This document shows, in pieces, positions 476 to 58,937 of a stretch of 64,000 nucleotides of DNA. Made by a program: the position numbers and the translations under genes. The notes under the pieces were generated by a model. It saw nothing but the letters and a program-made list of their open reading frames with translations, made no database searches and was not told the origin of the DNA. The DNA is from Allopseudospirillum japonicum (GTDB taxonomy: Bacteria; Pseudomonadota; Gammaproteobacteria; Pseudomonadales; Halomonadaceae): the NCBI RefSeq assembly GCF_900108915.1, contig NZ_FNYH01000002.1, forward strand, positions 62,001 to 126,000, written 5' to 3'. Position 1 is the stretch's first letter. Every line of letters begins with the position of its first letter.

Positions 476-1513
476 ATGAGTGAACGTCTGTTTGCCTGTG
501 GCTTGGGTGTGGGTACCCAAAATGCACAACCGCAATGGCTTGAAGTTTTTTATCCACAACCTTTGTTACAACCAAGTCCTGAGCTTGTGAAGGTGCTTAG
601 CGAGCATTTAGGCTATCAGGGTGGTAATCAAGCGATTAGCTTTACCCCTGCGCAAGCGCAAGCATTGGCACAAGCACTGCATGCGGCGGGTTTAACGACA
701 GATGCTACCTTAGTAGAAACACTCAGCCAAAGCCAACGCCCCTTAGTCGCGACTTTTATTGAAAGCGATCAAGCCCCTGCGAATGTGCCAGAAGTCTATC
801 TGAAGTTGCACTTAATCTCACATCGTATGGTAAAACCCCATACGCTGGACTTAAGCGGCATGTTTGGTGTCCTGCCCAATGTAGCTTGGACTAGTGAAGG
901 CGCCATTGATATTAATGAGCTTGGCGCACGTCAGCTAGCTGCACGTTTGCAAGGCCGCACTTTATCGGTCGATTGTGTGGACAAATTCCCCAAAATGACA
1001 GATTACGTGGTCCCTATGGGGGTACGTATTGCAGATACTGCGCGTGTGCGTTTAGGTGCTTATTTAGGCGAAGGCACCACGATTATGCATGAAGGTTTTG
1101 TCAACTTTAATGCAGGTACGGAAGGCCCGAATATGATTGAAGGCCGTATCTCTGCAGGTGTGACTGTGGGTGCAGGCTCTGACTTAGGTGGTGGCTGCTC
1201 CACTATGGGTACCTTGTCCGGCGGTGGCAATATCGTCATTAGCGTCGGTAAAGAGTGCTTGTTGGGTGCCAATGCAGGGATTGGTATTCCTCTTGGGGAT
1301 CGCTGTACCGTGGAAGCGGGTTTATATATTACTTCAGGTTCGAAAGTCACTGTATTAGATGATCAAGGCCAAGAAGTACAAGTGGTACGCGCACGCGAGC
1401 TTGCCGGCCAAAGTGATTTACTCTTCCGCCGAAATTCCACTAATGGGCGTTTAGAGTGTTTAACCAACCGCAGTGCAGTGGAATTAAATACGGCATTACA
1501 CGCAAATAACTAG
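476..1513 (+). CDS. dapD: 2,3,4,5-tetrahydropyridine-2,6-dicarboxylate N-succinyltransferase
   Basis: DapD transfers a succinyl group from succinyl-CoA to tetrahydrodipicolinate in the succinylase branch of lysine/meso-diaminopimelate synthesis in the cytoplasm. The 345-residue length matches the longer Pseudomonas-type DapD rather than the about 274-residue E. coli form. The C-terminal half shows the left-handed beta-helix hexapeptide repeat pattern (GAYLGEGTTIMHEGFVNFN, ISAGVTVGAGSDLGGGCS) and a conserved GANAGIGIPLGD segment. The ATG follows a weak purine-rich site. A rho-independent terminator sits directly downstream, so it probably ends its transcript. Recognition is by overall sequence pattern and is strong. 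Confidence 0.95.
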   Translation: MSERLFACGLGVGTQNAQPQWLEVFYPQPLLQPSPELVKVLSEHLGYQGGNQAISFTPAQAQALAQALHAAGLTTDATLVETLSQSQRPLVATFIESDQAPANVPEVYLKLHLISHRMVKPHTLDLSGMFGVLPNVAWTSEGAIDINELGARQLAARLQGRTLSVDCVDKFPKMTDYVVPMGVRIADTARVRLGAYLGEGTTIMHEGFVNFNAGTEGPNMIEGRISAGVTVGAGSDLGGGCSTMGTLSGGGNIVISVGKECLLGANAGIGIPLGDRCTVEAGLYITSGSKVTVLDDQGQEVQVVRARELAGQSDLLFRRNSTNGRLECLTNRSAVELNTALHANN

Positions 1514-1540
1514 CCTTTTGTCATTAACCTCAGGCTCAAT

Positions 1541-1580
1541 AAGCTACAGAGTCCATCGAGGCTTTGTAGCTTTTTTTGTT
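1541..1580 (+). terminator. Rho-independent terminator of dapD
   Basis: The arm AAGCTACA with three further bases pairs with CTTTGTAGCTT after a short loop, and the second arm runs into a T-rich tract. It lies between the dapD stop and mtnB, separating the two transcription units. Confidence 0.75.
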
Positions 1581-1612
1581 TTTTCTTTTCCGTGCTTGTG
1601 AGGTCAGAAATT

Positions 1613-2236
1613 GTGATTGATCTTCCCTTCTTTAGTCGTCAAGCGCAGGCGATTTGTGACGCAGGTCGCTTTTTATATCAACAAGGTTGGTCTCCTGCCA
1701 CGAGCAGTAATTATTCTGCACGTTTAGATAGCGAGCATTTTGCGGTGACTGTCTCTGGACGTCATAAAGGCCAACTCACACCGGCGGATGTCATGGCGGT
1801 GGATTTGCAAGGCCAGCCGGTGCAATCTGAAGCACGCCCTTCTGCAGAAACACGTTTGCATGCGGTACTTTATGAATGGCGTGATGATATTGGTGCGGTT
1901 TTGCATACGCACTCCATTGCCGGAACGGTCGTAAGCCGTTTGCAAGCGGGTGATGCACTGATTCTTGAGGATTATGAGCTGCAAAAAGCCTTTGCAGGCG
2001 TTGCCACCCACGAAGGTCAACTCTGCCTACCGATCTTTGATAATACGCAAGATATTGAGCAACTGGCTAAAGAAACTCTAAACTACCTCATGGCGCATCC
2101 AGAGACCCCAGCCTATTTAATTCGTGGGCATGGTATTTATACTTGGGGGCGCGATATGGCAGAAACCTTGCGTCATATTGAAGCATTAGAATTTTTACTT
2201 GCCTGTGAATTAGCAACCTTGAGGGCTATGTCATGA
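1613..2236 (+). CDS. mtnB: Methylthioribulose-1-phosphate dehydratase
   Basis: MtnB dehydrates 5-methylthioribulose-1-phosphate to a diketo phosphate in the methionine salvage pathway. It is a class II aldolase/adducin-fold zinc enzyme. The sequence has the MtnB hallmark GWSPATSSNYSAR near the N-terminus, the zinc pair HTHS (about residues 98 and 100) and a later RGHGIYTWG. The frame opens earlier with GTG codons at 1592 and 1598, but a TGAGG Shine-Dalgarno at 1599-1603 fits the GTG at 1613, giving 207 residues and the family's usual N-terminus. Its stop overlaps mtnD by four bases, so the two are translationally coupled. No mtnA or mtnC is next to it. Confidence 0.93.
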   Translation: MIDLPFFSRQAQAICDAGRFLYQQGWSPATSSNYSARLDSEHFAVTVSGRHKGQLTPADVMAVDLQGQPVQSEARPSAETRLHAVLYEWRDDIGAVLHTHSIAGTVVSRLQAGDALILEDYELQKAFAGVATHEGQLCLPIFDNTQDIEQLAKETLNYLMAHPETPAYLIRGHGIYTWGRDMAETLRHIEALEFLLACELATLRAMS

Positions 2237-2808
2237 GTTTTTTAACTGTGTATGCAGATCACGCCGATTATCAACAAGAGGCTCCCTTAGTGGATACTCA
2301 GGATGCAAGCGCCATTCAAGCTTATCTTGCAGAACACGGCATTGATTTTACCCGTTGGCAAGCCAGTCAGCCGGTACATGCCGATGCGACACAAGCTGAG
2401 ATTTTGGCCGCCTATGATCAAGAAGTGCAAGCGCTCAAGCAAGCTCAGGGGTTTACTACGGCGGATGTTATTCACCTTACCTCGGCGCACCCAGAAAAAC
2501 AGGCCTTACGGCAGAAATTTTTGGCAGAGCATATCCATAGTGAAGATGAAGTCCGCTTTTTTGTAAGCGGGCGTGGTCTTTTTTGTTTGCATTTGGAAGG
2601 CAAGGTAGCTTTGGTCGGTTGTGAACGCCATGACCTTATCTCAGTCCCTGCAAGCGCCAAACACTGGTTTGATATGGGTGCCGAGCCGGAATTTACCTGT
2701 GTGCGTTTATTTACCAATCCAGAAGGCTGGGTTGCACAATTTACTGGCGATAAGATCGCGGAAAAATTCCCACGCTTTGAGCAAGTTGCCGCTAAATTTG
2801 CCAGTTGA
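2233..2808 (+). CDS. mtnD: Acireductone dioxygenase (Fe or Ni dependent)
   Basis: MtnD cleaves the acireductone of the methionine salvage pathway to the ketoacid precursor of methionine plus formate (iron form), or by an off-pathway route (nickel form). It is a cupin of 191 residues. The metal ligands are visible as HIHSEDE (H100, H102, E106) and H144 in AKHWFDMG, matching the Klebsiella enzyme's ligand spacing. The ATG overlaps the end of mtnB by four bases. The usual third partner, the enolase-phosphatase mtnC, does not follow; instead a convergent class II aldolase-like gene begins four bases after the stop. Confidence 0.95.
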   Translation: MSFLTVYADHADYQQEAPLVDTQDASAIQAYLAEHGIDFTRWQASQPVHADATQAEILAAYDQEVQALKQAQGFTTADVIHLTSAHPEKQALRQKFLAEHIHSEDEVRFFVSGRGLFCLHLEGKVALVGCERHDLISVPASAKHWFDMGAEPEFTCVRLFTNPEGWVAQFTGDKIAEKFPRFEQVAAKFAS

Positions 2809-2812
2809 TTGA

Positions 2813-3427
2813 TTAAGTTAAAGAAGCTAGTCGCTGCTGCGCCCATTGGAGTTCTAGACTAGCTTCGATTAAATCCGCTCCCCAAGTCAGGATGCCATCT
2901 GTATGGCCATTCATTATAATGAGGCGTTCCCCTTGGGTTACATAGGCACCAATGGCTTGTGCCATAGCAGGTGTACCATAACCAATACTGGCGCAGGTTT
3001 GTGGATATAAAAGCTGATGGCGTGCTTGCCAAAGTTGCGGAGCATGGACATGGATCACAGCTTGTGCCAAGGGTTGCGCTTGGTACACGGCAGCATGGGT
3101 TAAGGCTTCGGAAGAAGGGGCTAATTGACCCCGTGCGCGCACAAAATTATGTGCTGGATCGGCTTCCACGACCTCACTCACTTCTGCAGCACTTAGGTAG
3201 GCCAAAGCACCTGTTTGGCTGGCACTAATTAAAAAACCCTCTGGGGTACGTACACTTAAATTGCCAAAACCTAGACCTTGATAGCGTTGCGCATCTTGCC
3301 CAAGCCAAGCACGCATTTTTAACCAAGCGCGCCATTGATTGAGGGATTTTAGAACACTAGCATCTAGCTGAAGTTTTCGTGTTTCTAGCTGAATTTGATA
3401 CTGAATCACGCCTTCACGTTCGTGCAT
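2813..3427 (-). CDS. Class II aldolase/adducin-family protein
   Basis: A 204-residue class II aldolase-fold protein. It has the features of a working zinc site: GFGNLSVR in the phosphate-binding region, PSSEALTH with E107, HVH at 126-128 and a third histidine H175 in NGHTDG. Relatives include fuculose-phosphate aldolase, ribulose-phosphate epimerase AraD and MtnB, so the substrate cannot be named. The start is supported by a GAGGGATGGAAG site directly ahead of the ATG. It lies 26 bases after hemE on the same strand, so both are probably co-transcribed, and converges on mtnD with only four bases between stops. It is not a close copy of the neighbouring mtnB. Confidence 0.8.
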   Translation of the reverse strand: MHEREGVIQYQIQLETRKLQLDASVLKSLNQWRAWLKMRAWLGQDAQRYQGLGFGNLSVRTPEGFLISASQTGALAYLSAAEVSEVVEADPAHNFVRARGQLAPSSEALTHAAVYQAQPLAQAVIHVHAPQLWQARHQLLYPQTCASIGYGTPAMAQAIGAYVTQGERLIIMNGHTDGILTWGADLIEASLELQWAQQRLASLT

Positions 3428-3453
3428 CTTCCATCCCTCACATCAATCAAGCG

Positions 3454-4536
3454 TTATTTATGGTAAGCAGGGCTAAGCTCATGCACCGCTTGGACAAAGG
3501 CTTTGGCATGTTCTGGATCGGCATATTGAGAGATTCCATGCCCTAAATTGAAGATATGGCCATCGCCTGTACCGAAAGAATCGAGAATTCGTGCCACTTC
3601 TGCACGTATGCTTGCTGGTGAGCCAAACAAGGCAGAAGGATCCATATTCCCTTGCAAAGCGACTCTGTGACCAACGCGCTGGCGTGCGGCACCGATTTCA
3701 TAGGTCCAATCAAGACCGAGCGCATCGGCACCCGTTGCTGCCATAGACTCGAGCCACTGGGCACCATTTTTCGTAAAGAGGATGACAGGAATTTTACGTC
3801 CTTGATGCTCACGAATAAGACCGTGGACAATTTGTTCCATATAGCGCAGGGAAAACTCTAAATAAGCCGGTGTGGATAAGACGCCACCCCAAGTATCAAA
3901 GATTTGCACCGCTTGCGCACCAGCGCGGATTTGTGCGTTTAAATACTCAGTGACTGTGTGTGCTAACTTATCTAACAAGAGGTGCAAGGCTTCTGCATTA
4001 GCGTACAGCATAGATTTAATATGCCGAAAATCCTTGCTAGAACCCCCCTCGACCATATAAGTCGCTAAAGTCCAAGGACTACCGGAAAAACCAATCAAGG
4101 GCACACGCCCATTCAGCGCATGACGAATCCGTGTGACCGCACGCATCACATAATCTAGATCACGTTCGACATCCGGCACCGGCAAGGCTTCTACATCTGC
4201 TAAGGTGCGTACCACTTTACGAAATTTAGGCCCTTCGCCGGTTTCAAAGTAGAGGCCCAAATCCATGGCATCGGGTACGGTCAGAATATCTGAAAATAAG
4301 ATGGCAGCGTCTAAAGGAAAGCGCTCTAAAGGTTGTAAAGTAACCTCACAAGCAAAATCTTGGTTACGGCATAAATCCATAAAAGAACCCGCATCTGCAC
4401 GGGTGGCTCGATATTCTGGTAAGTAGCGCCCTGCTTGGCGCATCATCCATACAGGGGTGATATCGACAGGTTGGCGCTGCAGTGCACGTAAGAAACGATC
4501 ATTGCGCAACTCAGGAAAAACAGGCGTCTCAGACAT
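3454..4536 (-). CDS. hemE: Uroporphyrinogen III decarboxylase
   Basis: HemE removes four carboxyl groups from uroporphyrinogen III to give coproporphyrinogen III in haem synthesis. The 360-residue protein begins with the family pattern [14 protein letters not shown] and [16 protein letters not shown], which holds the conserved arginines that bind the substrate carboxylates, and has [17 protein letters not shown] and the C-terminal FNLGHGI. Length matches the family. Transcription is divergent from ribA across about 240 bases; the class II aldolase-like gene follows in the same direction. Confidence 0.96.
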
Positions 4537-52803: not shown

Positions 52804-54564
52804 ATGGAAAATCCGCCGGTAAAAGCTGAAAATGAAGCTCAAAACAGTGCCGCGCAGGACAAGACGACTGAGACTAATAACGCAGGTGCTTCTGGCTCAA
52901 ATAAGAAAGAACCCCCTGCGTTTAAAGTTTTGGATGGCTTCAATCGCTTAGACATTCTTCGTCAAGCTGGGTTGCTTTTTGGATTTGCTGCAAGTATCGC
53001 GATTGGTTTTGCAGTGGTCATGTGGTCGCAAGAAGAAAATTATCGCCCGCTACTGAGTAGCTTGAACAATGATTTAAATTCAGCGTCTATCATGGAAATT
53101 CTGGAAACTAACCAGATTGAATACAAGGTTGATCCCAACAGTGGCGCCTTGCTTGTACCTGCTGACCAGATTTACAACGCCCGCATGAAAGTGGCTGCGG
53201 CAGATCTGGGTAAAACCGATATGCTCGGTTATGAGCTTCTGGATCAAGAACAAGCGCTAGGCACCAGCCAGTTTATGGAAACTGCGCGCTATCGACGTAG
53301 TTTAGAAGGTGAACTAGCACGTACTATTTCTAGCTTGAAATCTGTACGCCATGCGCGGGTACATTTGGCCATTCCTAAACAGTCTGTGTTTTTGCGTGAT
53401 CAGCGTAAGCCTTCTGCTTCCGTGTTTTTGACTTTGAGTGGCAGTCAAGGCTTAGATAAAGCGCAAGCCAATTCTATTGTAAATTTGGTCGCCTCCAGCG
53501 TACCTGAGATGAATCCTACTGAGGTTACCTTGGTGGATCAAAATGGGAATTTGTTGTCTGGCTTGCTGGATAAAAAGGATTCGCTTGACCAAGAAATGCA
53601 ACGCCAGTTGGAATATGTGCGCAAAGTTGAGCAGACTTTAACTGAAAGAGTGCGCAATTTATTAGAGCCTATTGTAGGTGCAGGACGTTTCCAAGCGGCG
53701 GTTTCTGTTGATATTGACTTTACGCAAGTCGAGCAGAGCGAAGAGCAGTTTAATCCGGATTTGCCTGCAGTGCGTTCTGAACAACTGCTGACAGAAAGAC
53801 GTAATGGGGATTTTGGTCCGCAAGGGATTCCAGGAGCTTTATCTAATCAGCCACCTCGCACGGGAGAAGCGCCTGAGATCGCAGGTAATGGCGCAGGTGG
53901 TGGTGAGGGTGATCCGCTCAATACTAAATCGCAAACCACCAGAAACTATGAGTTAGATCGTACGCTCAGTTACACTCGTAATCAGGTGGGACGCACCCAG
54001 CGGCTGAGTGTTGCTGTGGTGGTCGATGATATGATAGTGCGCTTGCCAGTGACAGAAGAAGGCGGTGAGGCTGGTGCCGATCGTCGTCCGTGGGATGAAA
54101 ACGAGTTACAGCGTTTAACGCAGCTGGTGCAAGATGCGGTGGGTTATCGTGCCTCACGGGGTGATAGTGTAAGTGTGATTAACACGCCTTTTGTGGACTC
54201 ACAAGATAACTTATTGCCTGATATTCCCATTTGGGAACAACCTTGGTTCTGGGATCTAGCCAAGCAAGTGCTTGCTGGCCTTTTCATTTTGATTCTTATC
54301 TTTGGTGTCCTTCGGCCTATCTTGCGCAATCTCGCCAGTGCTGCCGATAACAAGGATTTGGAAGAGGCTGAACTGGAAGCGATTCCTGCAATCGACAGTG
54401 ATTTAAGTGATGATCAAGTCACCTTAAGTGCTTCAGATGATCCTTTATTGGCACCACCAAGCGATTCTTACGAACGTCAGTTAAATGCTATTCGTTCGCT
54501 AATAGCTGAAGATCCTGGCCGTGTGGCCCAAGTAGTCAGACAGTGGTTGAATTCCGATGAGTGA
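52804..54564 (+). CDS. fliF: Flagellar MS-ring protein FliF
   Basis: FliF forms the MS ring in the inner membrane. The 586-residue protein has two membrane segments (about 54-74 and 478-500), the secretin-like ring motifs YRPLLSSLNNDLNSASIMEILE, GYELLDQEQALGTSQFMETARYRRSLEGELARTI and the VASSVPEMNPTEVTLVDQNGNLLS strand, and a C-terminal FliG-binding helix DPGRVAQVVRQWLNSDE. Length is normal. Its end overlaps fliG by eight bases. Confidence 0.95.
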   Translation: MENPPVKAENEAQNSAAQDKTTETNNAGASGSNKKEPPAFKVLDGFNRLDILRQAGLLFGFAASIAIGFAVVMWSQEENYRPLLSSLNNDLNSASIMEILETNQIEYKVDPNSGALLVPADQIYNARMKVAAADLGKTDMLGYELLDQEQALGTSQFMETARYRRSLEGELARTISSLKSVRHARVHLAIPKQSVFLRDQRKPSASVFLTLSGSQGLDKAQANSIVNLVASSVPEMNPTEVTLVDQNGNLLSGLLDKKDSLDQEMQRQLEYVRKVEQTLTERVRNLLEPIVGAGRFQAAVSVDIDFTQVEQSEEQFNPDLPAVRSEQLLTERRNGDFGPQGIPGALSNQPPRTGEAPEIAGNGAGGGEGDPLNTKSQTTRNYELDRTLSYTRNQVGRTQRLSVAVVVDDMIVRLPVTEEGGEAGADRRPWDENELQRLTQLVQDAVGYRASRGDSVSVINTPFVDSQDNLLPDIPIWEQPWFWDLAKQVLAGLFILILIFGVLRPILRNLASAADNKDLEEAELEAIPAIDSDLSDDQVTLSASDDPLLAPPSDSYERQLNAIRSLIAEDPGRVAQVVRQWLNSDE

Positions 54565-55573
54565 TGATGATAGCTACTCCAGCCACCTAGCTCCGGTGGA
54601 GCGGGCGGCCATTCTCATGTTGACCTTGGGTGAATCTGATGCAGCCCAAGTGCTCAAGCATATGGGGCCTAAAGAAGTACAAAGTATCGGCACGGCCATG
54701 TCACAGCTGAAAAACGTCAGTCGTGTTCAAGTGGAAGAAGTGCTCAGCGACTTTTTAGAATCTGTGGGCGATCAAACTGGGTTAGGCGTAGGTGCGGATA
54801 ATTATATTCGTAAGATGCTGACCGAGGCACTAGGGGAAGATAAAGCCAATGGCTTAATTGACCGGATTTTGCTTGGCGGTAATACCACAGGCTTGGATAC
54901 GCTCAAATGGATGGAGTCGCGGGCAATCGCTGACATTATCCGCTATGAGCACCCGCAGATTCAGGCGATTGTGCTTTCTTATTTGGATGCGGATCAATCG
55001 GCGGAAGTGCTTAAATTCTTTGATCCTAAAGTGCGTTTAGATGTCATGCTCAGGGTGGCAGCACTTGAGTCTGTGCAGCCACAAGCATTGCAAGAACTTA
55101 ACGATATTTTAGAGAAGCAGTTCTCAGGTTCCAGTGGTACGCAAACCACCAGCATGGGTGGGGTGAAAGTGGTTGCCAATATCATGAACAATGTGGAAGG
55201 TTCAGTTGAAGGCGAATTGATGGATGCGATTAAAGAGGTGGATGAAGCCTTGGCTGAGGAAATCGCTGATCTGATGTTTGTCTTTGATAACCTGGTCGAT
55301 GTGGATGATCGCGACTTGCAAACCTTGCTGCGTGAGATCCAGCCAGAAACCTTGGTGTTGGCACTGAAAGGCGCAGATGTACGCGTACAAGAAAAAATCT
55401 TTAAGAATATGTCTAAGCGTGCCTCTGAACTCTTACGTGATGACCTAGAAGCACAAGGACCTGTCAAAGTCAGTGAGGTAGAAATCTCACAAAAAGAAAT
55501 TCTCGCTGTTGCACGTCGTTTGGCTGATGAAGGCACGATCAGCCTAGGATCAGGCAGCGATCAGATGATCTAG
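54557..55573 (+). CDS. fliG: Flagellar motor switch protein FliG
   Basis: FliG links the MS ring to the stator and sets torque. The 338-residue protein has the N-terminal FliF-binding domain (ERAAILMLTLGESDAAQVLKHM), the middle EHPQIQAIVLSYLDADQSAEVLKFF and the C-terminal torque domain with IADLMFVFDNLVDVDDRDLQTLLREI, LALKGADVRVQEKIFKNMSKRASELLRDDL. The conserved charged residues of the torque helix are present. It overlaps the end of fliF by eight bases. Confidence 0.96.
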   Translation: MSDDDSYSSHLAPVERAAILMLTLGESDAAQVLKHMGPKEVQSIGTAMSQLKNVSRVQVEEVLSDFLESVGDQTGLGVGADNYIRKMLTEALGEDKANGLIDRILLGGNTTGLDTLKWMESRAIADIIRYEHPQIQAIVLSYLDADQSAEVLKFFDPKVRLDVMLRVAALESVQPQALQELNDILEKQFSGSSGTQTTSMGGVKVVANIMNNVEGSVEGELMDAIKEVDEALAEEIADLMFVFDNLVDVDDRDLQTLLREIQPETLVLALKGADVRVQEKIFKNMSKRASELLRDDLEAQGPVKVSEVEISQKEILAVARRLADEGTISLGSGSDQMI

Positions 55574-55601: not shown

Positions 55602-57602
55602 ATGAAAAATCGCATGTCAAGGATTCCCGCTGCTGATAAAGCGGATTACCAACGCTGGGAGATGCCTGATTTAACAGGGATCAACCGGCGTATTCGTGAG
55701 CGTTTGCAAGAAATTGAGCAAGCCGAACAACAAGAGGAAGCAGCGACACCCGAACCTACACCAGAAGAAATTGCCGCAGAAAAAGCGGCACAAGCCCGCC
55801 TTGCACGTGAGCAAGAATTGGCACAGATTCGTGAGCAAGCCTATCAAGAAGGCTTTACTCAAGGTCAACAAGCAGGTTTGGAGCAAGGCTACCAAGATGG
55901 ATTTGCTCAAGGCCAGCAAGCAGGCCATACGCAAGGGTTAGAACAAGGGATACAAGAAGGGATTCAAGAAGGGTTAAATCAGGGGCAAGAGCAGTTAGAT
56001 CAAATTAAAAGTCGTCTACAGCATTTGATTCAACATTTACGTGAGCCTTTGGCACGTCAAGATGATGAATTAGAAGAAGTCTTACTTAGTTTGGTGCAAA
56101 TGCTGTGTCAGGCGATCTTGCTGCGTGAGCTCAGTATTAACCGTCGCCACCTACTGATGATAGTGCGCGAAGCGATTCAGGCTTTGCCACCGATGTCAGA
56201 ACGCTTATTTGTGTATGTCCATCCGGAAGATATTGAGCTTGCTGGTGAAGCTTGTGCGGGAGTTCCTGAGGCGTGCCGCGTTTTTGCCGATGAGAATATG
56301 ACCCCAGGCGGTTGCCGAGTGGAAACGCAAAATAGCTTAGTTGACTATACTTTTGAGCGTCGCTTTCAAGATATTTTGCGCCTTGCGGTAGAAAAGCGTT
56401 ATAGCCAAGCCCTACCACAACCGCATCCACAAGAAGATTTGGATGCGTGGGAGGAAGCTTACTTGCCTGCAGAAGCACAGGCGCAGGTATCTAGTTCACC
56501 CGCACAAGCTTTGGAATGGCAAGATGTTGTGCCTGTGATTGATGATCTGCAAGACTTGTCGCAAGAGTTAAAAGCCTTGCGTGCTTTGCGGCAAGGGCCT
56601 TTTGTCGCGAAAGCGAATTGGCAAATTGAAGATGATGAGATGCTGGACGCTGAAACTTCAGTAGCTGTTGGCCCTGAAGTCGAGCAAGCCACTGAGACAC
56701 AAGAAAAAGATCAACAAGAAGACGTTGCAGAAACGACGGATGTTGCACCAAGTTCCGATATGAGTGCAGCAGATGAAGCGATATCCGATACATCAGAGAC
56801 ACCAGAGGCAGTCTCATCTGACATCTTGGAAACCGCTGAAGTCTCGTCGGAACCGCTTGATACCCAGCAGCCAGAAAATCAATGTCAAGATCAGCCTACT
56901 GCTGAGCTTGAACAAGCACTTGAAGAGGATAGGGCGACTCAAGTAGAAGAGATGCCTGAAGAAACGGCCTCTACATCCTCTGTGGAAGAGACGCCGTCGC
57001 TTGCGGACGAGGCTTCTGCACAAGCTGTAGAGGACGCTTTGCCATCTGATATGCCTGAAGAAGTACCAGAAAATCAGGCGATAGAGCCTTTGGAGAAGGA
57101 TGATCTCATGCCAGATACACGGACAGGCGCTTGGCCTGAAGATATTGAACCTTTAGATACTGCGGTTTTAGGCGAAGTACCGCCTTTACCGCCTGCAGAA
57201 AGCTTGGAACCGACACCTTCCATGCCGTTAGAGCCTGCGTCTTACGCGAGTTTAGAAGACTTAGAACCTTTGCAAACTTGGCCAGGCTTACAGGATGCAG
57301 AGCATTTGTGGGAACCACAGGCACCAAGTGCTGAGCAAAAACTAGCGACGAATGCAGCTGTGATTGAAGATCGTTATCTTCCGGATGAAGAAGAACAAGC
57401 AGTGCCTTTAGATGAAGCCTTGGATTTAAGTGCTTTCGAAGCCGAAGAAAATACCCCGCTGGAAAAAGCTAAAACCAGCGAAGATACGGATAAGGCCAAG
57501 CTAGAACAGGTACAAAGTCAACTCAACCCAGAAGCAGCCCAGTGGGATGATTTGGACTTAGAACAGTTATTTACTGATGATAAGCAAACGAAGGAGCCCT
57601 AA
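55602..57602 (+). CDS. fliH: Flagellar export regulator FliH with a very long acidic C-terminal extension
   Basis: FliH is the stator of the flagellar export ATPase FliI. Residues 1 to about 267 are a normal FliH: the RWEMPDL N-terminus, a glycine-repeat coil (EGFTQGQQAGLEQGYQDGFAQGQQAG and further QG steps) and the FliI-binding domain ending near FQDILRLAVEKRY. The frame then runs on for about 400 more residues, rich in Glu, Asp, Ser and Pro, with EPL(D/E/Q) motifs at 417, 495, 516 and 555 and a terminal WDDLDLEQLF (648-657). Typical FliH is 220-280 residues. AGG ten bases ahead fits the ATG at 55602. The stop lies two bases before fliI. Confidence 0.9.
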   Translation: MKNRMSRIPAADKADYQRWEMPDLTGINRRIRERLQEIEQAEQQEEAATPEPTPEEIAAEKAAQARLAREQELAQIREQAYQEGFTQGQQAGLEQGYQDGFAQGQQAGHTQGLEQGIQEGIQEGLNQGQEQLDQIKSRLQHLIQHLREPLARQDDELEEVLLSLVQMLCQAILLRELSINRRHLLMIVREAIQALPPMSERLFVYVHPEDIELAGEACAGVPEACRVFADENMTPGGCRVETQNSLVDYTFERRFQDILRLAVEKRYSQALPQPHPQEDLDAWEEAYLPAEAQAQVSSSPAQALEWQDVVPVIDDLQDLSQELKALRALRQGPFVAKANWQIEDDEMLDAETSVAVGPEVEQATETQEKDQQEDVAETTDVAPSSDMSAADEAISDTSETPEAVSSDILETAEVSSEPLDTQQPENQCQDQPTAELEQALEEDRATQVEEMPEETASTSSVEETPSLADEASAQAVEDALPSDMPEEVPENQAIEPLEKDDLMPDTRTGAWPEDIEPLDTAVLGEVPPLPPAESLEPTPSMPLEPASYASLEDLEPLQTWPGLQDAEHLWEPQAPSAEQKLATNAAVIEDRYLPDEEEQAVPLDEALDLSAFEAEENTPLEKAKTSEDTDKAKLEQVQSQLNPEAAQWDDLDLEQLFTDDKQTKEP

Positions 57603-57605
57603 TTT

Positions 57606-58937
57606 GTGGCGCACAATCCCCTACTGGACCGCTTAAAAGCCTATCAGCTGCAAGATGCAGTTAAACCCAAAGCCTTAATTGAAGGCCGTTTGGTACGCAT
57701 GGTAGGCCTTACCCTAGAAGCTGTAGGTTGCAACCTACCTGTAGGGAGTTATTGCAATATTGAAAGTGCTACAGGGCAGCCAATTGAAGCTGAAGTCGTA
57801 GGTTTTTCAGGCGATCGCTTATACCTAATGCCTGTTGGGTTGGCAGAAGGTTTGCGTCCGGGGGCGCGTGTGACCCCAAACCAAAGAGCTTTACAAGTCC
57901 CTGTGGGGTTTCACTTGTTGGGGCGAGTACTTAATGGTAGTGGCCAGCCTTTGGATTCTCTTGGGCCGCTTATTGCTGATGATTATGTGAGCTTAAACGG
58001 TCGAATCATTAACCCTTTGCAGCGTGATCCGATTAGCCAACCTATGGATGTGGGGATTTGTGCGATTAATGCCTTGTTTACTGTGGGCCGTGGTCAACGT
58101 TTGGGGTTAATGGCCGGTAGTGGTGTGGGTAAATCCATGTTGTTAGGGATGATGACTAAATTTACCTCCGCAGATATTACTGTTGTAGGGCTCATTGGTG
58201 AGCGGGGCCGCGAGGTTAAAGAATTTATCGAGCATATTTTAGGGCCGGAAGGGATGGCCCGCTCGGTCGTGGTTGCCTCCCCTGCGGATGATCCGCCACT
58301 AATGCGTTTGCGCGCGGCTATGCTGACAACCAGTATCGCTGAGTATTACCGAGATCAAGGCAAGGATGTGCTCTTATTGATGGACTCACTAACGCGTTTT
58401 GCACAAGCACAGCGTGAATTATCTTTGGCAGTTGGTGAGCCACCTGCAACTAAAGGCTACCCTCCTTCAGTATTTGCGAAAATTCCGCAGTTGGTGGAGC
58501 GTGCTGGTAATGGGCCTGCAGGGGGCGGATCCATTACGGCATTTTATACCGTCCTGACGGAAGGGGATGACCAACAAGATCCGATTGCCGATGCCACGCG
58601 TGCTATTTTGGATGGCCATGTGGTGCTATCACGGCGTTTGGCTGAGGAAGGCCATTATCCTGCTATTGATGTGGAAGCCTCAATTAGTCGTGCTATGCCA
58701 CAAATTGTCAGTGAAGCGCACCTGCGTCGTGCTTATCGTTTTAAGCAAATTTATGCCCGCTATCAACAAAACCGAGATCTAATTAATGTCGGGGCTTATA
58801 CACAAGGCTCAGATCCTGAAACGGATTTTGCAATTGCGAAAATGCCACAAATTCGTGATTTTCTGCGCCAAAGTTTGCATGCAAGTGTACCTTTGCGCCA
58901 AAGTTGGCATCAATTAGAGGCTTTATTGCAAGCTTAG
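57606..58937 (+). CDS. fliI: Flagellum-specific ATPase FliI
   Basis: FliI is the ATPase that powers flagellar protein export. The 443-residue protein has Walker [10 protein letters not shown] (170-178), [14 protein letters not shown], Walker [17 protein letters not shown] and the F1-beta-like [15 protein letters not shown] and [27 protein letters not shown]. The GTG start has AAGGAG ten bases ahead inside the end of fliH, giving coupled translation. Confidence 0.96.

Follow-up and report, generated by a model that had tools for sequence, protein, structure and literature searches.

FliH is a regulator of the flagellar export ATPase FliI. In Salmonella, its C-terminal domain binds FliI at the N-terminal helix and at an arginine cluster close by, and ring formation by FliI is suppressed when FliH is bound (PMC8041783). 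The published domain scheme places the FliI-binding domain at the C-terminus, and the same text describes a helix of GxxxG repeats as a FliH feature (PMC2674601). For Campylobacter jejuni, FliM and FliY are reported to form a platform for FliH, and FliH in turn to anchor the ATPase (PMC6946799).

The window (the whole 64,000-nucleotide stretch of DNA analysed here, to which all coordinates refer) contains the flagellar run fliF-fliG-fliH-fliI-fliJ-fliK-fliL-fliM, with fliH in its standard position:

54557..55573, + strand: fliG, the neighbour 5' of fliH (open frame, Pfam)
55602..57602, + strand: fliH, 666 residues from ATG (open-frame list, Pfam)
56001..56372, + strand: FliH core domain, Pfam PF02108, residues 134-257 (fold match to 5b0o_E)
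56388..57599, + strand: C-terminal tail, acidic and predicted disordered, residues 263-666 (composition, AlphaFold, direct measurement)
57606..58937, + strand: fliI, the neighbour 3' of fliH (open frame, Pfam)

The fliH reading frame is uninterrupted across 55602-57602, with fliG on one side and fliI on the other, and fliI starts four bases past the final base of fliH. A TTG six bases 5' of the ATG is an alternative start that would give 668 residues.

The core is that of a FliH protein. PF02108 scored 90.7 bits, above its curated cut-off of 24.1, and the core, which ends near residue 262, matched Salmonella FliH (5b0o chain E) both in sequence (E 2.3e-6) and, as an AlphaFold model, in fold (TM 0.76 by target length; Foldseek E 2.2e-5, probability 1.00). 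A predicted helix before the FliH domain carries the GxxxG repeat, with glycine at each fourth residue from 84 to 128. The whole protein did not reach an NCBIfam FliH equivalog cut-off (best NF004270.2, 153.1 vs 180 bits) in a scan of the window FliH. The FliI-binding domain is not at the very C-terminus, since about 404 residues follow it, and because of this departure from C-terminal placement we call the protein a variant, the core features being present. Judged by its sequence, it is FliH with an ordinary, intact core and an added, apparently flexible arm. The sequence-only reading had proposed a FliH frame with an acidic C-terminal extension of about 400 residues, and the 666-residue frame, with about 404 residues past the core, confirms it.

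Over 392 residues the tail is 27% D/E, 4% K/R and 23% S/P/T, with a net charge of -88. When stop-to-stop frames of at least 200 residues in the window plus the 39 kb that follow it were ranked (n=69), it held the most acidic 100-residue stretch (net 31; median 7), ahead of the frames of CheA (25) and FliK (20, level with another frame); its acidity is extreme but not alone among these frames. From residue 268 to the end, Pfam gave no match up to E 0.1 and NCBIfam none up to E 1. The AlphaFold model of the window FliH (40-row alignment) was confident in the core and mostly below pLDDT 50 in the tail, as was the tail in the model of a relative (L035, 21 rows). The longest predicted helix in the tail has a mean pLDDT of 70 over residues 321-330:

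56550..56591, + strand: longest predicted helix in the tail, residues 317-330 (AlphaFold)

We then asked how widely the tail occurs. FliH was matched in 223 of the 275 genomes of the family; the survey does not name 32 of the genomes without a match, which may include members of the tail-bearing genera. Tails were measured directly in 57 of the matched proteins, comprising ten tail-bearing FliH, that of genome G030 from another family (534 residues) and 46 others. All ten FliH found in three genera (one genome of the window's genus, eight of a second and one of a third) have tails of 238-404 residues with a net charge of -45 to -92. The 46 others, which include six genomes of a neighbouring genus with tails of 10-92 residues, have a median tail of 18.5 and a maximum of 97. 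Nine further family members with long-looking listed frames have real tails of 5-19 residues; the open-frame column of the listing can report another frame than FliH. With the window tail alone as query, six of the 275 family genomes matched up to E 0.1 and only the window fell below E 0.018; the tails of its relatives have diverged too far for such a search.

A FliG tree was built with 55 rows (without L023 and L034, where FliG is incomplete; 18 loci of other families added no rows). A single change accounts for its nine tail-bearing rows in all 200 bootstrap trees (100%), a count made only against seven other labelled rows, with 39 unlabelled rows uncounted. Support for the tail-bearing branch is 17/98. 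These results are consistent with a single gain of the tail. The FliG proteins of the tail-bearing genera and their neighbour also sit on long, fully supported branches apart from those of other family members, hinting at two flagellar lineages inside one family.

Alignment of the ten proteins with MAFFT revealed one element past the core that all of them keep, V-x-[ED]-x-[RH]-Y, which in the window reads:

57360..57377, + strand: conserved short motif VIEDRY, residues 587-592 (MAFFT alignment, profiles)

The form observed across the ten is V-[HYI]-[ED]-[DV]-[RH]-Y, always 29-75 residues from the C-terminus, and the stricter [ED]DRY is present in seven. The full pattern appeared in none of 5000 shuffles of each of the ten tails. 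As the pattern had been derived from the same tails, profiles were built on the second genus only, using its eight tails. At 8 columns, a width chosen, like the pattern itself, after the motif had been noticed, the best site was the motif in both remaining genera, and shuffles scored as high in 0/5000 (window) and 1/5000 (third genus) cases. A 12-column profile gave 1/5000 and 46/5000, and a 20-column profile gave 0/5000 for the window and failed for the third genus (1645/5000). For seven unrelated FliH tails the corresponding counts were 1251-4148 of 5000 at 8 columns and never fell below 431 of 5000, whatever the width. Other tests of the motif fared less well: a first profile of 20 columns had given 0/2000 for the window and 1203/2000 for the third genus; an HMM of the 20-column block gave 25/2000 and 16/2000, and an HMM of the whole tail 70/2000 and 658/2000. 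A three-way ungapped block scan returned the motif as best block, matched by 3/60 and 16/60 shuffles.

A genome-wide search with the 20-column alignment of the second genus recovered neither the window FliH nor that of the third genus. The motif alignment of all ten (38 positions) found no second protein in the window's own genome (G000) up to E 1, and across the 390 genomes of the order it gave matches up to E 0.3 in 25, none of them convincing; the best besides the window FliH (E 0.005, an 84-residue frame) is at chance level for such numbers of genomes. Neither AlphaFold model has a folded element around the motif, which is itself of low confidence; both are models of monomers, which do not exclude a partner. 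Altogether, the motif appears to be real but short. A 15-base direct repeat, 93% identical, lies at 56533-56547 and 57358-57372 of the window and codes for V-I-D-D after the core and for the V-I-E-D of the motif, possibly by chance.

Six pairs within the second genus were used to compare constraint on the core, the tail and a 20-residue block around the motif. Identities in the three closest pairs were 91, 94 and 78% for the core, 50, 51 and 47% for the tail and 85, 85 and 90% for the motif block; the three more distant pairs gave 75-76%, 34-39% and 76-90%, respectively. In the closest pairs dN/dS was 0.24, 0.25 and 0.18 for the tail, 0.04, 0.03 and 0.09 for the core and 0.24, 0.16 and 0.02 for the motif block, the first of which equals that pair's tail value. 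These ratios are rough, with dS near saturation (1.1-2.8 for core and tail), and tail dS in the distant pairs could not be estimated. The tail evolves fast yet retains its reading frame.

Tethers with a docking site are usually built in this way, as a disordered acidic linker that bears a single constrained motif close to its end. We tentatively favor such a reading here, while giving it somewhat less than even weight: the tail would be a flexible tether ending in a short putative docking motif, whose partner would lie close to the export ATPase or the C-ring. Since the FliH C-terminal domain holds FliI in Salmonella, the tail should begin beside the ATPase. An acidic, predicted disordered linker of 238-404 residues with drifting sequence extends from the core; V-x-[ED]-x-[RH]-Y, kept near its end in all ten proteins, would serve as the docking site, and FliH at the ATPase spokes and C-ring could thereby reach or hold a protein partner; alternatively, the partner might be met on the cytoplasmic FliH2-FliI carrier.

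Long or acidic FliH tails are also found elsewhere in the order, where FliH was matched in 285 of 390 genomes and, among the matches listed, the open frames longer than 400 residues measure 407, 460, 673 (the window) and 830. From this listing 18 FliH of other families were picked, mostly for longer frames; their tails measure 26-576 residues and are all net negative (-3 to -80). The FliH of G030 and G322, two genomes of a single other family, have very long tails (534 and 576 residues) that resemble the window tail in acidity, net in G322 and by eye in the first part in G030. They differ from it in a glutamine-rich second half and in the absence of the conserved motif: the G322 tail has no RY or HY, and that of G030 gave no match to the motif profile. 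These tails are probably an independent extension, and suggest that the FliH C-terminus is a site of repeated arm evolution. Both tails (L010, L101) have F-x-A-F/Y-like aromatic elements close to the end. Moderate acidic, S/P/T-rich tails, shorter than that of the window, occur in G510 (197 residues), G356 (148) and G382 (139). The G356 tail has the sole RY (ELDRY) among the 18, without the preceding V-x-[ED].

Such tails bear on a second reading, in which the extension is an entropic bristle that owes its whole effect to bulk, charge and disorder (through solubility, crowding or spacing of FliH2-FliI complexes), and the motif is there by chance or plays a small structural part. Composition kept in all ten tails (-45 to -92) while sequence drifts is what this would predict, and it gains from the net-negative tails of at least 50 residues in 17 of the 18 other-family FliH, bearing in mind their selection for length, and from the unrelated tails of G030 and G322. 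Against it stands the survival of a six-residue motif in all three genera, each time about equally far from the C-terminus. We consider this reading possible, although on the unlikely side.

The tail might instead have overgrown almost neutrally through repeat slippage, with the exposed C-terminus of FliH tolerating the added length. Two relatives' tails (n=2) do carry in-frame DNA arrays (an 18-base unit repeated 8.7 times at 92%, and a 15-base unit repeated 4.4 times at 100%), which are therefore one route of tail growth, and tail length in the second genus varies from 238 to 377 residues. However, no tandem array was found in the window tail DNA, dS is close to saturation and yet no stop codon shortens any of the ten tails to fewer than 238 residues, the rough tail dN/dS of 0.18-0.25 points to constraint, and the motif is retained. 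Overgrowth seems to us quite improbable.

Similarly low in our estimate is an electrostatic regulator of FliI, in which the polyanionic tail would fold back onto the arginines clustered in the FliI N-domain and delay hexamer formation. In its favor, that cluster binds the FliH C-terminal domain in Salmonella and FliH restrains ring formation (PMC8041783), and the window FliI, aligned with 5b0o chain A, keeps four of the six cluster arginines (30, 33, 76 and 93). At the equivalents of Arg-26/Arg-27, a basic residue is found in none of the ten tail-bearing genomes, compared with 5/6 in the neighbouring genus and 30/40 other loci (most, not all, from the same family), and FliI may thus have changed along with the tail. 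This change removes positive charge, however, so simple charge attraction is not favored. Outside the family the position does not track a long tail either (basic in 0/18, with FliH tails of 26-576 residues), and the net charges of the first 100 FliI residues overlap, at -2 to +1 for the tail-bearing genomes (n=10), -1 to +2 for the neighbouring genus and -3 to +5 for the rest. We keep the arginine cluster as a minor rival partner only.

The sequence-only reading had pointed to other elements of the tail, namely four EPL(D/E/Q) motifs and a final WDDLDLEQLF proposed as a docking helix:

56850..56861, + strand: EPLD, residues 417-420, not kept in relatives
57084..57095, + strand: EPLE, residues 495-498, not kept in relatives
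57147..57158, + strand: EPLD, residues 516-519, not kept in relatives
57264..57275, + strand: EPLQ, residues 555-558, not kept in relatives
57543..57572, + strand: WDDLDLEQLF, a loosely shared acidic Trp-Leu element, residues 648-657

The tail is repeat-bearing in the sense of its four EPL[DEQ] copies (0.19 on average in shuffles, for a pattern picked post hoc), but not in that of a DNA tandem array. As a functional element EPL[DEQ] can be set aside: it is nearly private to the window genome, with no copy in eight of nine relatives' tails and one in the remaining tail. WDDLDLEQLF is near the end, although not at the very end, as nine residues follow. Several relatives have counterparts after the motif (WLDDL, WMDDL, WEKDF) and others have none; a loose W/D/L pattern is present in 7/10 tails at shuffle P 0.046-0.216 each, the L033 copy lying upstream of the conserved motif. 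This makes a weak case for a docking helix. The broader idea of a short near-terminal element under constraint fares better, in that V-x-[ED]-x-[RH]-Y looks constrained, while EPL and WDDLDLEQLF do not. Neither of the latter is the best candidate for function; the conserved element is V-x-[ED]-x-[RH]-Y, which precedes WDDLDLEQLF by about 60 residues.

WDDLDLEQLF could also be a CheY- or FlhG-type docking mimic that imitates the EIDAL motif of the FliM N-terminus or the CheZ C-terminus, both of which are EIDAL-like CheY-binding peptides and can be seen in this genome's FliM and CheZ. By eye it loosely resembles DEIDVLL of FliM and DEVDELLSSLGF of CheZ. None of the ten tails matches [DE]-hydrophobic-D-x-hydrophobic-hydrophobic, a simple pattern of such peptides, and WDDLDLEQLF is poorly conserved; we regard a mimic as very improbable. 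Finally, a frameshift, an assembly error or a fusion with an adjacent gene, for which we found no supporting evidence, is next to impossible, since the long tail is common to relatives, with the same FliH build in ten genomes of three genera, the frame remains open and stops just short of fliI, and the libraries and genomes searched yielded no homologue of the tail other than in FliH; the extension is real, as first proposed.

Returning to the tether with a docking site, a more specific version of it, which we consider rather unlikely, is that the tail is a clade-specific ‘fishing line’ whose motif is a new putative linear motif that binds some part of the export apparatus or of the C-ring, or else a polar landmark. 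If so, it would make an extra contact with no known counterpart in enteric flagella. As no flhG lies beside flhF in the tail-bearing genera or their tail-less neighbour, the arm may provide another way to aid the delivery or counting of export complexes.

The region downstream of flhF was read at L078:8178-8290, L080-L094 and L097, covering the window's genus, the two other tail-bearing genera and the tail-less neighbouring genus. In 16 of the 21 genomes read, the gene immediately after flhF encodes a sigma factor, leaving no flhG in between; it is fliA by Pfam in G000 and by eye elsewhere. The tail-less neighbouring genus likewise has no flhG beside flhF, so the absence of flhG does not track the tail, and we rejected a link between the two. 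An FlhG query gave two weak matches on other contigs of G000 (33% identity, and 43% over 54 residues), perhaps MinD and a relative. At its N-terminus, FliN (L078:266-811) carries a DDWAAAxxEQ-like repeat in three copies, and the same triple build occurs in all four relatives read (G002, G022, G162 and the tail-less G004); being found with and without the FliH tail, it was rejected as a correlate. The FlhF frames of three family genomes (L098, L099 and L100) are 874, 766 and 727 residues from stop to stop, and the 17 other complete cases read have 424-477.

Among the matches listed for titles and abstract openings of the open literature, no FliH C-terminal extension is described, which is not proof of novelty. 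By the comparisons made here, the protein is a genuine FliH variant that three genera have in common; it is apparently under constraint and carries a short motif newly noticed here. FliH connects the export ATPase with the C-ring, and its FliI-binding domain is usually given as its last part; a disordered arm of 240-400 residues, kept in one lineage and bearing one constrained motif, would provide a natural example of an extra contact made at the ATPase spokes. The window protein is like Salmonella FliH, the export ATPase regulator in 5b0o chain E, in core sequence, core fold, adjacency to fliI and the GxxxG helix, and unlike it in running about 404 residues beyond the FliI-binding domain.
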